Source of the DNA: Haloplanus sp. GDY1
GTDB taxonomy: Archaea; Halobacteriota; Halobacteria; Halobacteriales; Haloferacaceae
Length of the DNA stretch: 64,000 bases
Assembly: GCF_023703775.1 (NCBI RefSeq)
Contig: NZ_CP098517.1
Location: forward strand, 1 to 64,000
Direction: 5' to 3'
Shown piece by piece: positions 39,991 through 61,668 of the stretch. The notes under the pieces were generated by a model, which worked only from the letters and a program-made list of their open reading frames with translations, searched no databases and was not told where the DNA came from. Both the position numbers and the translations under genes were made by a program. Numbering within the stretch: position 1 is the stretch's first letter; every line of letters begins with the position of its first letter.

Positions 39991-40014
39991 ATGGACGAGG
40001 ACACGGAGTCAATC
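39991..40014 (+). pseudogene. doc: 5' end of the interrupted doc gene
   Basis: ATG 39991 encodes the first eight residues (MDEDTESI) of a Doc protein. Its last eight bases, AGTCAATC (40007-40014), are the left copy of the target duplication. Joining 40014 to 42615 restores one continuous frame into the Doc protein. Confidence 0.8.
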
Positions 40015-40066
40015 GGCTCTGTTGAAATCCTCGGAGGGTTACAGGTTCACATAGTAGTCTGATCGT

Positions 40067-40888
40067 ATGGAAGTCCTCCCGAAGTCGCGGTTGCTCCGGT
40101 TCGTTGAGCAGGCGTACCACTTGGCTCGGCGAGCTGTTGCCCGCTACTCCTCGAAGTTCTCGAAACGTCGCTACACACTCCACCAACACATCGTCTTGCT
40201 CTGCCTCAAAGTTCGGAAGAATACGACGTACCGGATGCTTCTTGACGAACTCATCGAGATGCCCCGGATTCGAAGAGCCATCGATCTTGAGGAACTCCCG
40301 TTGCCCTCAACGCTATGCAAAGCGTTCAACCGACTCGATATGGCAGTCTGGCGGGTTCTTCTTAATCTCTCAGTTACGCTTCTCCCAACCAACGGTGTCG
40401 TCGGGATCGACGCTTCCGGGTTCGACCGCAGTCATGCCTCGAAGCACTACACGAAGCGAACGAAGTTGACAATTCAGCAGTTGAAAGTCACGCTTCTCGT
40501 GGACACGAGGGTGAATGCTATCCTTGACGTACACGTGACGACAACACGAAAACACGACTCGAAGATCGCGCCGTCGCTCATCAAGCGGAATACCGATTAT
40601 GTAGCGGTTCTCCTCGGCGACAAAGGATACGATGATCAGAAGATTCGCACTTTAGCCCGTGAAGCTGGTGTTCGACCGCTCATCAAGCACCGCGAGTTCT
40701 CGTCTCTTCACAAAGCGTGGAATGCTCGGTTGGATGCCGATCTTTACGGTCAGCGCAGTCAGAACGAGACGGTGAACTCTCGGATTAAACGGAAGTACGG
40801 TGCGTTCGTCCGCTCACGGTACTGGTGGAAGCAGTTCCGTGAACTCGTTGTCGGCTGTCTCACTCATAACATCGACAAGGCACTCTGA
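40067..40888 (+). CDS. IS5-family DDE transposase
   Basis: This 273-aa protein carries DDE elements: GIDASGFDRSHAS (Asp about 116), LLGDKGYDD (Asp about 185) and NETVNSRIKRKYG (Glu about 227). This layout is that of IS5-group haloarchaeal transposases, and the length is normal, so it looks intact. It should cut at the GGC-TTGAAATCC ends at 40015 and 42606. It lies 52 bp inside the left end. Confidence 0.88.
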   Translation: MEVLPKSRLLRFVEQAYHLARRAVARYSSKFSKRRYTLHQHIVLLCLKVRKNTTYRMLLDELIEMPRIRRAIDLEELPLPSTLCKAFNRLDMAVWRVLLNLSVTLLPTNGVVGIDASGFDRSHASKHYTKRTKLTIQQLKVTLLVDTRVNAILDVHVTTTRKHDSKIAPSLIKRNTDYVAVLLGDKGYDDQKIRTLAREAGVRPLIKHREFSSLHKAWNARLDADLYGQRSQNETVNSRIKRKYGAFVRSRYWWKQFRELVVGCLTHNIDKAL

Positions 40889-41036
40889 ACGTTAGATATA
40901 GAGGGTGTACCTCACAGGCGGGTGAGAAACTCACTGATCTCCGTCAGTAGCGGTGTGACCGATACAGAGATCTCTTCTATTGGAGAGAAAACCCGGGTTC
41001 AAAATACATACATGGGTACTGGCCACATTACGACTA

Positions 41037-42473
41037 ATGGAAGAAGATACGACGCCCCGAGAGAAGGATAAACACGGGGCTGACTGGTATCGGACGCTCG
41101 TTGAGGAGGTGAATGATCTCGCAACAGTCGTTGATCCCGACGGGACGATAACCTACGTCAGTCCGGCTGTCACACGGGTGCTCGGCTACGACCCCGACGA
41201 CTTGATTGGTCATGAAGGATACGAGTTTGTCCATCCCGAGGACCGAGAACGAAACGCCGACGCGCTGGAGGCAGTTCTCTCGGACCCATCTGAATCCGAG
41301 ACTGTCGAGGTCCGGTTCCGCCACGCCGACGGCTCGTGGCGCTGGATCGAAGCCACAATGCGGAATCGACTTGACGACGACATCATCGATGGGATCCTCC
41401 TTAGCAGTCGGGATATCACGGAGCGAAAGGAGTACGAGGCCGAAGCCCGGGAACTTGCCGAAGAGTACGAAGCCCTGTTGAACAACGTCGAGGATGCCAT
41501 CTTTCTCATCAACGTCGAAAAACGAGAGGAGAGTGTCCGATTTGAATTCGAACGCCTCAGTCCCTCCTACGAGCGGCAAACCGGAATTATAACAGAGGAC
41601 GTACAGGGCCAGACACCGCGTGATGTGTTCGGCGAGGAGCAGGGGGCTGAGTTAGAAGCGAACTACCACCGCTGTGTCAACGCCGGCGAGCCTATCTCGT
41701 ATCAAGAGGAGCTCCGGGTAGATGAGGGAGCACGTTTCTGGCAGACGAAACTCGCGCCGGTGGTCAATGACGGTGAAATCACGCGCCTGATCGGGGTCAC
41801 TCGGAACGTGACTGAACGCGTCGAACGAGAGCGACAATTACGTCAGCAGAACGAGCGCCTCGAAGAGTTTGCAAGTGTTGTTTCCCACGATTTGCGGAAC
41901 CCGCTCAATGTCGCACAAGGTCGTGCAACGCTCCTCGACGAGCAGGTCGAAAGTGATCATCTCAAGCCACTTGTCCGAGCGCTCGACCGGATGGAGGCAA
42001 TCGTTGAGGACACGTTGACGCTTGCTCGTCAGGGCGACACGATTAGCGAAACCGAGTCGGTCAGCCTGACTGACCTCGTCGGGAAGTGCTGGGGGACAGT
42101 AGACACGGAGGACGCAAATATCGAGATCGTCGATGAGATGACTTTCGAAGGTGATCCCGATCGGCTACGGCACGTGTTCGAGAACTTGTTCCGCAACGCT
42201 GTTGAACACGGTGGGTCCGACGTGACCGTCCGTGTGGGTTGTCACGATGAACAGGGAATCTATGTTGAAGACGATGGGCCAGGAATTCCAGTCGAAAAGC
42301 GTGACGAAGTGTTCGAGCCTGGTCATTCGTCAGCACGGGGTGGGACTGGTTTCGGGTTGACCATCGTAAAACGGATTGTGGAAGCCCATGGCTGGGAATT
42401 GTCTATAACCGATGGAACCGATGGTGGAGTGCGGTTTGAGATTGAGATGGCGAAGCAGAAAGACTTCGCGTGA
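41037..42473 (+). CDS. PAS-domain sensor histidine kinase, IS cargo
   Basis: ATG 41037 follows an AAAATACATA box by about 30 bp, so the transcript may be leaderless. The 478-aa protein has two PAS domains (residues about 25-130 and 145-270), a HisKA segment with the phospho-acceptor His in VVSHDLRNPLN (about 283) and an ATPase domain with NLFRNAVEHG, EDDGPGIP and GTGFGL. No membrane helix is present, so it senses a cytoplasmic signal. No response regulator is adjacent. It lies inside the IS5-type element, which makes it a passenger gene. Confidence 0.88.
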   Translation: MEEDTTPREKDKHGADWYRTLVEEVNDLATVVDPDGTITYVSPAVTRVLGYDPDDLIGHEGYEFVHPEDRERNADALEAVLSDPSESETVEVRFRHADGSWRWIEATMRNRLDDDIIDGILLSSRDITERKEYEAEARELAEEYEALLNNVEDAIFLINVEKREESVRFEFERLSPSYERQTGIITEDVQGQTPRDVFGEEQGAELEANYHRCVNAGEPISYQEELRVDEGARFWQTKLAPVVNDGEITRLIGVTRNVTERVERERQLRQQNERLEEFASVVSHDLRNPLNVAQGRATLLDEQVESDHLKPLVRALDRMEAIVEDTLTLARQGDTISETESVSLTDLVGKCWGTVDTEDANIEIVDEMTFEGDPDRLRHVFENLFRNAVEHGGSDVTVRVGCHDEQGIYVEDDGPGIPVEKRDEVFEPGHSSARGGTGFGLTIVKRIVEAHGWELSITDGTDGGVRFEIEMAKQKDFA

Positions 42474-42620
42474 GTGCTTAGACAAGGTCTGTCACCTATG
42501 CATCGAACAGTGCGGTAGTTAATCGATGGTAGCGTGTATGAGGTGCTCGCTATGTATTCAGCAGGATCCCTAAAACCTATCACCGACTGAGGATTTCAAC
42601 AAGGCCAGTCAATCAGCTAT

Positions 42621-43136
42621 TTGTCGGCTGCTGATATCCGTGACATCCACGAGTTGATCGTGGAGTCAAATGCGGAGACAACCGCTGGTGTCGCCTCACC
42701 AGGCGATATTGAATACACCGTTGAACATATTCAGGAAGGCCATTTCGGTCAGGTTCCCGAATCGATCCACGAGAAGGCATTTCAGCTGTTGCGGCTCATC
42801 GCGGCGAATCATCCATTCGTCGACGGCAACAAGCGAACAGCCCTTATGTCGACCCGAATTTTCTACGCGCTGAATGGCCGCCGCTTTGACTACGATCGGG
42901 AGGTCAAAGAGACCCTAAAGGCGCTCGCGACAGATGAGGGCAGTGTCGATGCGGACGACGTGATCGAGTATCTACGAGCGCACACAGAGCCACTGGCGCC
43001 GGAATATGAGGCGACCATCAACCTGTGGCTGGCACGAATTGAAGACACAGACCAGCTACCGGCGGACCACGACACTGTCGACCAGGAATCCCACGAACCG
43101 AACGATTATGATGACGACCCGCATAGTGAGGAGTAA
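42621..43136 (+). CDS. doc: Doc toxin-like Fic protein, 5' end displaced by the IS
   Basis: The frame contains HPFVDGNKRTA (about residues 56-66), the Doc active loop with His, Asp, Asn, Lys and Arg all present. Doc phosphorylates elongation factor Tu in bacteria. The original start was ATG 39991; the IS separated the first eight codons. After the insertion no ATG exists upstream and a stop lies at 42588-42590. Only TTG 42621 can start a 171-aa product, lacking ten N-terminal residues. An acidic 45-residue tail is longer than in classical Doc. Whether it is still made is unknown. Confidence 0.82.
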   Translation: MSAADIRDIHELIVESNAETTAGVASPGDIEYTVEHIQEGHFGQVPESIHEKAFQLLRLIAANHPFVDGNKRTALMSTRIFYALNGRRFDYDREVKETLKALATDEGSVDADDVIEYLRAHTEPLAPEYEATINLWLARIEDTDQLPADHDTVDQESHEPNDYDDDPHSEE

Positions 43137-45285: not shown

Positions 45286-45315
45286 GTTTATTGCCCCCCA
45301 GAAGGGGTGCGGGGG
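45286..45315 (+). promoter_or_regulatory. Leader hairpin element g
   Basis: GTTTAT box (45286-45291), C-run GCCCCCC (45293-45299), then AGAAGGGGTGC and a second G-run GGGGG (45311-45315). The C-run can pair with either G-run. ATG 45337 follows after 21 bp. Confidence 0.68.
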
Positions 45316-45336
45316 AGAGAACCACGAGGCCAACAA

Positions 45337-47145
45337 ATGACCCACCTCACTGAACAATTCCATATTCCCCGAGAGTATCACGCTGCCTGTTCCCGAATCC
45401 TAGAGCTCGGGCAACGCCATCTCCGTCGATTGCTCAAGGAAGAATACTGGCGAGACAGGCACCTCGAAGCGATTCAGTCCCGCGATAGCAACGACCACAC
45501 CTACGTCCGAGACGACGAGTACGAGCCGTTCGAGGACATAGACGCATACCTCTACAACCGATTCAAGCGATGTATCTACCATCGTGTTACTCGGATTCTA
45601 AAAGCTCATCGTGAGAAGTACCGTGCCTTCCAGTTCATCGTCGAAACTGTCGAGGAACGAAAAATCAGGCGGGTTGGATGGCAGCAGCTTCGAAGCCGCC
45701 TATTCGATAGTGGAGACTCACCGTACATCCAGTGGAGCAATATCGAAACCGTCGTCGAGCAGCTAAACAATCATTACGACCGGAATGGCCGATTTCCTGA
45801 AGCATACACGGACCTCGTCGACTGTCCCCAGCCCGACGACACGGTTCCCTTCGGCCCGGACAGTCGTGGAGACATCCACGAGGTCCAAGCCGCGGACGGA
45901 GAAGTCGTGGTGATGCTGAAGGCGCCGGATTCGCTATCGCCCAACTCGTATGCCGACTGGACAGAGCACGAAATACGGTTCCCAGCCCACCAACGGTTCA
46001 ACGAGATGCTTGAGGCAGGGGAGCTGAAAGCGCCGACACTGCATTCCTCCGAATACGGCTATACGCTGGACGTGCCAGTGGATGTTCCCGAGACCTCCGT
46101 AGACACCACTTCCGACCGTGTTCTCGCTGTGGACCTCGGCGTGAAAAAGCAGGCAACTGCGGTTGTGTTAGACGGATCTGAAGACGGGAAAGATGAATCC
46201 CAGATCGCGCCACCCAACTTCGTCGACCACCACGCGAAGGACAAACTGTTTCGAGTGAAAGCCGACGCCGAGGGCATAGACAGCCGCCTTGCCGAACTCC
46301 GCCAACAGGGCAAGAGCCATACCGAGCAGTTCGCTCACCTCCTCAGCGAATATCGCCGGACGCGACGGAAGGAGCGACGTCTCCGCGACCAGATCCAGCA
46401 CGATGTAGCAAATCAGCTGGTGTGGCTCGCGGCCGTTCACGAGTGCGAGACGATCGTCCTCGAGTCGCTAGGGCAGTTTGAGGCCGAAGAGACGGGTGGC
46501 GTGACGGCATGGAGCATCTCGACGTGGGCCCATGGGAAGTTACTTGAGCGGCTCCGGTACAAGGGTGACCTCCTCGGGCTCGACGTCGAGACGGTGAATC
46601 CCTGGGGGACATCACGCTACTGTCCGCGATGTGGCGAACGCGGCAAGACCGTGAAGGCCCCGACAGATCACACCGAGTTACGCAACGGCGGCCACTTCTA
46701 CTGTCCCAGCTGTGAGTATGAGTGCGACCGAGATGTGGTCGGCGCGGTCAATGTCGGACGAAAACACCTCTCTGGGAGTCGGATGGAAACGGCGAATCCC
46801 TGTGTCTACACGGCGCGGGGAAATCACGCCAGCTTTCCATCACGCCCCACCTGCGAGCGTGTCCGTTCTGAGGCCGGCACGGAGGATTCAGAAACCGTGT
46901 CGGTGCCTGGCGTTCAGTCCGCGGCCAACAGTGAACAGGACCCGGCGAGTGGCCGTCAGACCCGATTGTCCGAGTACCGTTCTTCGTCCCTCACTACGAC
47001 ACGAAGCCGGGCAGAGGAAGGACTGCAACAAAATCAGAGCAGGAAGACGGGACTGCGGTGTCCCAGCGGGAGCATTACGAGGCAGTGTTTGCTCGTCAGC
47101 ACGAACGATTCCCACGAGGTGCTTCCAAATCCTGCCGAAAATTAG
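45337..47145 (+). CDS. Large TnpB-like RuvC nuclease
   Basis: ATG 45337 gives 602 aa, against about 400-430 for typical TnpB. RuvC residues are present: LAVDLGVKK (Asp about 267), VLESLG (Glu about 375) and CDRDVVGAVNVG (Asp about 465), with CPRCG and CPSC zinc pairs between. The N-terminal 260 residues are longer than in TnpB. A 130-residue tail follows RuvC and ends without recognised motifs. It has the same hairpin leader as the accessory genes and no tnpA. An RNA-guided nuclease role is likely; domestication is inference. Confidence 0.78.
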   Translation: MTHLTEQFHIPREYHAACSRILELGQRHLRRLLKEEYWRDRHLEAIQSRDSNDHTYVRDDEYEPFEDIDAYLYNRFKRCIYHRVTRILKAHREKYRAFQFIVETVEERKIRRVGWQQLRSRLFDSGDSPYIQWSNIETVVEQLNNHYDRNGRFPEAYTDLVDCPQPDDTVPFGPDSRGDIHEVQAADGEVVVMLKAPDSLSPNSYADWTEHEIRFPAHQRFNEMLEAGELKAPTLHSSEYGYTLDVPVDVPETSVDTTSDRVLAVDLGVKKQATAVVLDGSEDGKDESQIAPPNFVDHHAKDKLFRVKADAEGIDSRLAELRQQGKSHTEQFAHLLSEYRRTRRKERRLRDQIQHDVANQLVWLAAVHECETIVLESLGQFEAEETGGVTAWSISTWAHGKLLERLRYKGDLLGLDVETVNPWGTSRYCPRCGERGKTVKAPTDHTELRNGGHFYCPSCEYECDRDVVGAVNVGRKHLSGSRMETANPCVYTARGNHASFPSRPTCERVRSEAGTEDSETVSVPGVQSAANSEQDPASGRQTRLSEYRSSSLTTTRSRAEEGLQQNQSRKTGLRCPSGSITRQCLLVSTNDSHEVLPNPAEN

Positions 47146-61196: not shown

Positions 61197-61258
61197 TCAC
61201 ACTGCAGGATGATTGTTTTTATCCGACGGTGTGAAACGCTATCAGGTCAGGAGAAAAC

Positions 61259-61654
61259 AGCTCTGTTGAAACCCTCAGTTGCTGTTAGATCGTAGAGCCC
61301 TGCTGCATACAGGGCGCTTATGCACCAGACCCGAAGGCTGTCTTCCCTTCTCGATAATAAACGAACCAATATGCAACGGGCCAACAGATAACGAGCGCTG
61401 CGATATTCAATGGGGCGGTCGAAATTACGTCTGGTGGAAGAAAGAGTGAGCCAATACCAGCGAGAACAGCGAAGACAGCAACTGCAACGATTACGAGCCT
61501 AACCCAATCCTTCATACCGGAATCAATCTCGGATACTGTATAAGTCTTTTACAGACGACCTATTTCGGAGTGAATTCACGCTGCCCCACGTGCTGCACAC
61601 ATTCTCTGTATCTCGCATGGCGCTATGCCAGCAATAAAGGGTTTCAACAGAGCC
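61259..61654. mobile_element. 396-bp non-autonomous IS5-like element with a passenger ORF
   Basis: GCTCTGTTGAAACCC (61260-61274) and GGGTTTCAACAGAGC (61639-61653) are perfect inverted repeats, related to the ends at 40015 and 42606. GAGAAAAC flanks both sides (61251-61258 and 61655-61662), an exact 8-bp duplication. No transposase lies inside. The element carries a minus-strand ORF for a 65-aa membrane protein and a GCCCTG/CAGGGC hairpin near 61297. It sits 15 bp before the gene at 61669. Confidence 0.85.
61318..61515 (-). CDS. 65-aa two-helix membrane protein, element cargo
   Basis: ATG 61515 encodes MKDWVRLVIVAVAVFAVLAG and a second hydrophobic segment (about residues 36-53), ending in a basic YYREGKTAFGSGA tail. 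It lies wholly inside the 396-bp element, so it moves with it. No family is recognised. Two membrane helices and small size are shared with the genes at 61669, 61885, 62132 and 62500, but sequences differ. Confidence 0.55.
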   Translation of the reverse strand: MKDWVRLVIVAVAVFAVLAGIGSLFLPPDVISTAPLNIAALVICWPVAYWFVYYREGKTAFGSGA

Positions 61655-61668
61655 GAGAAAACGTATCG

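Follow-up and report, generated by a model that had tools for sequence, protein, structure and literature searches.

Kinase-Carrying Unit within a Fic/Doc Gene

The window analyzed here, 64,000 nucleotides in all, comprises positions 1–64000 of contig C4 (107 kb) in a 3.4-Mb haloarchaeal genome. Within it lies a unit of 2592 bp (40015–42606) with inverted-repeat ends, an intact IS5-type transposase, an intact histidine kinase, and an 8-bp duplication at its flanks (Table 1). The 33-nt ends (40015–40047 and 42574–42606) are 79% complementary, 16 of the 18 bases at the tips match, and the flanking octamer is exact, which confirms the inverted-repeat ends and target duplication claimed in an earlier note on this DNA. 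The transposase scores 213.9 bits against the IS5 model NF033579 (transpos_IS5_2; cut-off 140) and is also recognized as DDE_Tnp_1, in agreement with the IS5-type assignment made in that note. Pfam detects PAS, HisKA, and HATPase_c domains in the second gene, and both the transposase and the 478-aa sensor kinase that had been placed within the 2592 bp are intact. An IS5-type DDE transposase together with 18-nt tips and 8-bp duplications places the unit in the IS5 family. The transposase occurs once in its own genome. As the earlier note had observed, no right end is present in the unit nearer to the transposase than 42606; the right end that is present is of a bipartite cassette type, formed by an inner box and the tip.

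Table 1. Features of the kinase-carrying unit, its insertion site, and a second element in the window
Feature	Position	Strand	Remark
Fic/Doc gene, interrupted, 5' fragment	39991–40014	+	remainder 42607–43136; PF02661
Target duplication AGTCAATC, left copy	40007–40014	.	sequence single copy in uninterrupted Halobacterium plasmid sites
Left tip inverted repeat GGCTCTGTTGAAATCCTC	40015–40032	+	kept in all relatives
IS5-type DDE transposase, 273 aa, intact	40067–40888	+	sole copy in own genome
Inner box AGATATAGAGGGTGTAC, left border of cargo slot	40894–40910	+	
Cargo PAS-PAS-HisKA-HATPase_c histidine kinase, 478 aa, intact	41037–42473	+	
Right inner box (reverse complement TGCTGAATACATAGCG)	42548–42563	-	
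Right tip inverted repeat	42589–42606	-	
Target duplication AGTCAATC, right copy	42607–42614	.	
396-bp transposase-less element, ends as in the kinase unit	61259–61654	-	exact duplication GAGAAAAC at 61251–61258 and 61655–61662

The unit splits the Fic/Doc gene close to its 5' end. The flanks are contiguous in Halobacterium and other plasmids, where they overlap by the duplicated bases and no kinase lies between them; the gene there is annotated as a death-on-curing toxin. Further downstream in the same plasmid region, at 45307–47145, is a TnpB-like ORF of the IS200/IS605 type, which we recognized by eye only.

Copies of the Unit at Other Sites

The earlier note had proposed a search for the same unit at other sites with different 8-bp duplications, and two such sites were found, both in other genera. 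The whole 2592-bp unit is present in the Haloarcula pelagica plasmid NZ_CP126163.1 with 98.1% identity and GATTGGCT on both sides, and a further copy, from another genus (genome G202), has 97% identity and the duplication CAATTTTT; the right tip of this last copy is shorter by one base. As far as sequence comparison goes, these copies show joint movement of the transposase, the kinase, and both ends as a unit of 2592 bp, which has reached at least three sites and is bordered at each by a different 8-bp duplication, and they support the proposal that the kinase is cargo of an IS5-type unit. The opposite arrangement, in which the kinase always lies beside doc and the transposase alone is mobile, does not hold because doc is free of the kinase in Halobacterium and other plasmids and the kinase is also found away from doc.

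All three copies hold an intact kinase. Between the window copy and the H. pelagica locus (L013), we counted 12 synonymous and 13 nonsynonymous differences, and between the window copy and locus L054, 22 and 17 (334 synonymous and 1103 nonsynonymous sites in both comparisons). The resulting dN/dS of about 0.2–0.33 among the three copies indicates purifying selection, so that the kinase has been maintained as a functional passenger.

At the H. pelagica site (L013:5593–5620), the unit is inserted at the extreme tip of a second element that shares its end sequence, and GATTGGCT there overlaps GGCTCTGTTG. The chromosome of the window's own genome holds a remnant of about 310 bp (L002, C1:2071.7–2072.0 kb), in which a left end and the transposase start are fused to the last kinase codons and a right end; judged by this structure, and with no matching duplication around it, it is an internally deleted older relative. 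At a contig end of Halobacterium bonnevillei (L313:3004–3130), a stretch of 127 bp matches a portion of the kinase gene perfectly and continues into unrelated sequence; it may be a real fragment or the product of an assembly join. In a Salinigranum marinum plasmid (L016), a homologous kinase gene is split by another IS5-type element.

Survey of Related Elements

Related left ends were gathered across 392 genomes of the order as well as plasmids, and for each a right end followed by the same 8 bases was sought, with at most one mismatch in the duplication and at least 12 of 18 tip bases required. Flanks shifted by 20–200 bp (1480 tries) served as the null. A matching right end and target duplication accompany 84 of the 148 distinct left ends (57%), as against 7/1480 (0.5%) in the shifted controls. 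Because of this difference, and because the kinase unit occupies two further sites with other duplications, chance can be excluded as the source of its ends and duplication. The other 64 left ends have no matching duplication, although for 46 of these a right end lies no more than 10 kb away.

The 84 complete elements measure 1193–8323 bp (median 1663), besides one doubtful case of 318 bp. A cargo-free element would measure about 950 bp; no copy of this size was found in the survey of 148 left ends, nor did the matches listed in a plasmid search with the fused left and right modules (956 nt) include one of that length in a single piece. Identical elements recur at different sites, an example being L083, L084, and L220 with three duplications.

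The cargos recognized by Pfam include TehB-type and O-methyltransferases, a redoxin, RibD_C, a truncated aminoglycoside acetyltransferase, a PLP enzyme, GNAT, bacterio-opsin-activator-type regulators, hydrolases, an amphi-Trp protein, a periplasmic binding protein, TrkA_C with a formate/nitrite transporter, an acyl-CoA dehydrogenase, an ABC transporter with NosL, and an RDD protein. Many further cargos are small membrane- or lipoprotein-like ORFs with no Pfam match, which could be spurious. The kinase unit thus has what defines a transporter IS (tIS): a single pair of ends encloses the transposase and a passenger that moves with it (three sites, three duplications), and the passenger kinase, like dozens of other cargos in the family, is unrelated to transposition. 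The sensor kinase pointed out as cargo in the earlier note is one case of a wider pattern, with dozens of other cargos in the transposase clade and the kinase itself also present as a transposase-less cassette.

Two elements of the survey are of unusual build. The largest (L082, 8323 bp) encloses an ABC transporter pair with NosL and TrmO-like genes in one pair of ends, with the exact duplication CGTTGTGA. A composite-like element of 5028 bp (L118:1019–6046) has inverted transposase sequences at both ends, one of them partial, around TrkA_C and formate/nitrite transporter genes.

Module Borders, Inner Boxes, and Cargo Turnover

Comparison of the elements shows a modular architecture: left tip, transposase, an inner box directly after the stop codon, then a slot in which the cargo varies, and lastly a right end of roughly 60 bp formed by an inner box and the tip. 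In most of the compared pairs, homology stops 5–17 nt past the transposase stop, and in one class of right ends the homology border lies 60–67 nt from the right tip. A regular expression for the left-border box (GATAYAGAGGG-like, just after the transposase stop) matches 34 of 60 elements, compared with 3.1% of control windows; in the right ends of transposase-bearing elements, it matches just 3 of 60. The inner box is common to transposase-bearing and transposase-less ends. On its own, the inner-box pattern is only about twofold above a reversed control (40 genomes), and we relied on it solely in combination with the tip: box and tip motif at a constant spacing of 54 nt define 10 transposase-less left ends, with none for the reversed pattern. 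The same kind of search with another tip variant gave no matches.

Turnover of the cargo is fast and takes place at fixed borders, and the host-type genes carried appear to be interchangeable. Among pairs with a left-module identity of 95% or more (95–99.8%), 11 of 17 carry unrelated cargo, none of the 68 pairs at 90–95% share cargo, and six pairs share cargo despite left modules that are just 81–86% identical. In L099 and L101, the left 939 bp are 99.8% and the right 60 bp 100% identical, with only short stretches in common between them; at about 93% identity, the cargo of L101 matches the one in L118, an element with 82% identity in the left module. We found no donor–recipient–recombinant trio for a cargo exchange.

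Transposase-Less Cassettes

Three of the 10 bipartite left ends have a right end, an exact duplication, and ORFs without a transposase between them (1325 bp; 1248 bp, with an SBF transporter; and 860 bp). The window itself contains a 396-bp element of this kind (Table 1) with one small, membrane-protein-like ORF at about 61318–61515 on the minus strand; its replicon also bears the only transposase copy of the genome. Halorubrum coriense and H. ezzemoulense carry the kinase within a unit of 1737 bp that has a bipartite end on each side and no transposase between the two. The duplications of this kinase cassette, GTCTCTAG/GTCTCTGG, have one mismatch (H. coriense), and the two species apparently share one insertion. 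The kinase cassette and the 396-bp element both consist of IS ends, a duplication, and a cargo ORF with no transposase, the composition of a mobile insertion cassette (MIC).

We also inspected kinase homologues at 16 transposase-free loci. End-like sequence above the local null flanks, on one side or on both, every one of the eight homologues with about 85% or higher amino acid identity and none of the eight more distant ones in this first set; the Halorubrum cassette kinases (84%) slightly extend the range. In a kinase tree of modest internal support, the end-bearing homologues cluster (2 changes compared with 6.4 in shuffles). They cross families, and the window kinase is closest to homologues of family f4. 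The kinase homologue of a congener has no element ends. With PADLOC, the kinase had no defense match, and one cassette protein partially matched the candidate family PDC-S31.

Proposed Mechanism and Alternatives

We consider it highly probable that the kinase unit is a transporter IS, an IS5-type element that is autonomous and carries cargo, in a modular system of tISs and mobile insertion cassettes. The transposase would act in cis on both ends of its own unit and would also serve, in trans, cassettes that lack a transposase, the 396-bp element among them. As the constant borders suggest, transposase modules and cassettes with common tips and inner boxes would recombine, giving the cargo turnover, and the hybrid element would then transpose. 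A more specific form of this model, in which one IS5-type transposase clade and a large pool of cassettes have bipartite ends in common and form a dedicated haloarchaeal gene-shuttling system, with cassettes swapped at a defined inner-box site so that the transposase module gains new cargo in an integron-like way via transposon ends, seems to us rather unlikely.

An ordinary short IS beside a resident kinase, with the right repeat and the duplication coincidental or contributed by a second IS, would be in keeping with the common occurrence of transposase-free kinase homologues. However, the close homologues bear the ends of the element itself, the target gene occurs without the kinase, right ends match in far more relatives than controls (57% versus 0.5%), and one unit occupies three sites with three duplications; the second and third copies already refute this explanation, and we give it practically no weight. 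Scarcely more credible is a composite transposon, with the kinase originally between a pair of full IS copies of which only an end of one is left. The inverted transposases at both ends of L118 offer a precedent among the relatives, but the kinase unit has just one transposase and one pair of tips, the transposase is present in one copy genome-wide, and the right end is a 60-bp module with no transposase remnant near 42480–42590, as in dozens of relatives, so that two IS copies are not in evidence.

The origin of the cargo is the point at which an alternative carries more weight. Sporadic, independent illegitimate events (one-sided transposition, deletion, or chance right ends) could have recruited the genes in place of recombination between modules, and the constant borders would then reflect only selection for the minimum needed, a transposase and a right end. 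The diversity of the cargos in family and orientation and the existence of solo right ends (L005; the window's own genome) suit this account, whereas pairs with 97–99.8% identical left and right modules break near the same border with no residue of an older cargo, and transposase-bearing and transposase-less ends have the inner box in common. We therefore grade illegitimate capture as a conceivable but weaker alternative to recombination, somewhat doubtful as it stands.

Comparison with Known Systems

Haloarchaea are known for heavy gene exchange, and their small single-gene vehicles are poorly mapped. A widespread IS clade with different cargo in practically every complete copy, together with its cassettes, would be a testable intergenus vehicle for regulators, transporters, methyltransferases, and kinases. 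For annotation, it suggests a rule: right ends should be sought 0.3–7 kb beyond the transposase.

Among the openly licensed papers searched, which included work on Haloquadratum, Ralstonia, and Halorubrum, none was found to describe a haloarchaeal IS5 clade that bears cargo. The named haloarchaeal IS5-like elements ISHla2 and ISHxa2 have the same tips and 72–73% nucleotide identity in the transposase region, with other cargo; an ISHxa2-family copy on pHALXA01 forms a 2490-bp unit with the duplication CACCGTCT and an RDD-family gene inside, and ISfinder curators may already have noted single cargo cases among these relatives. The only haloarchaeal passenger gene mentioned in the papers searched is Hlac_3088, in PMC10544981, where its IS family is not given. 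Transposase-less haloarchaeal elements with IS ends include HqIRS32 (ISH2 type) of Haloquadratum, which has one ORF inside (PMC3119063). Compared with such haloarchaeal MICs and MITEs, the cassettes described here are 0.4–1.7 kb long, have larger ORFs, and bear the ends of an identified transposase clade.

Transporter ISs and MICs both represent established classes (PMC3129680, PMC9330008), the former being single ISs that bear passenger genes with no relation to transposition. What sets the present elements apart from known tISs is that almost the entire transposase clade carries cargo, which turns over rapidly. Their closest functional parallel is IS231-MIC231 of the Bacillus cereus group (IS4 family), which PMC2266710, citing De Palmenaer 2004 and Chen 1999, describes as passenger-bearing ISs with transposase-less cassettes of the same ends and calls modular; according to that paper, such modularity had not yet been seen in other IS families as of 2008. 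The IS4-family model NF033592 scores 38 bits on the window transposase (cut-off 115), and we rejected membership in IS231-MIC231. The haloarchaeal system thus works like IS231-MIC231, with autonomous cargo ISs and transposase-less cassettes of the same ends, but is not a member of it because its transposase is IS5-type. The position of the cargo differs as well: in IS231-MIC231 it is enclosed by the left end and the transposase, and in the haloarchaeal elements by the transposase and the right end. Modularity of the IS231-MIC231 kind would thereby extend to another IS family and to archaea.
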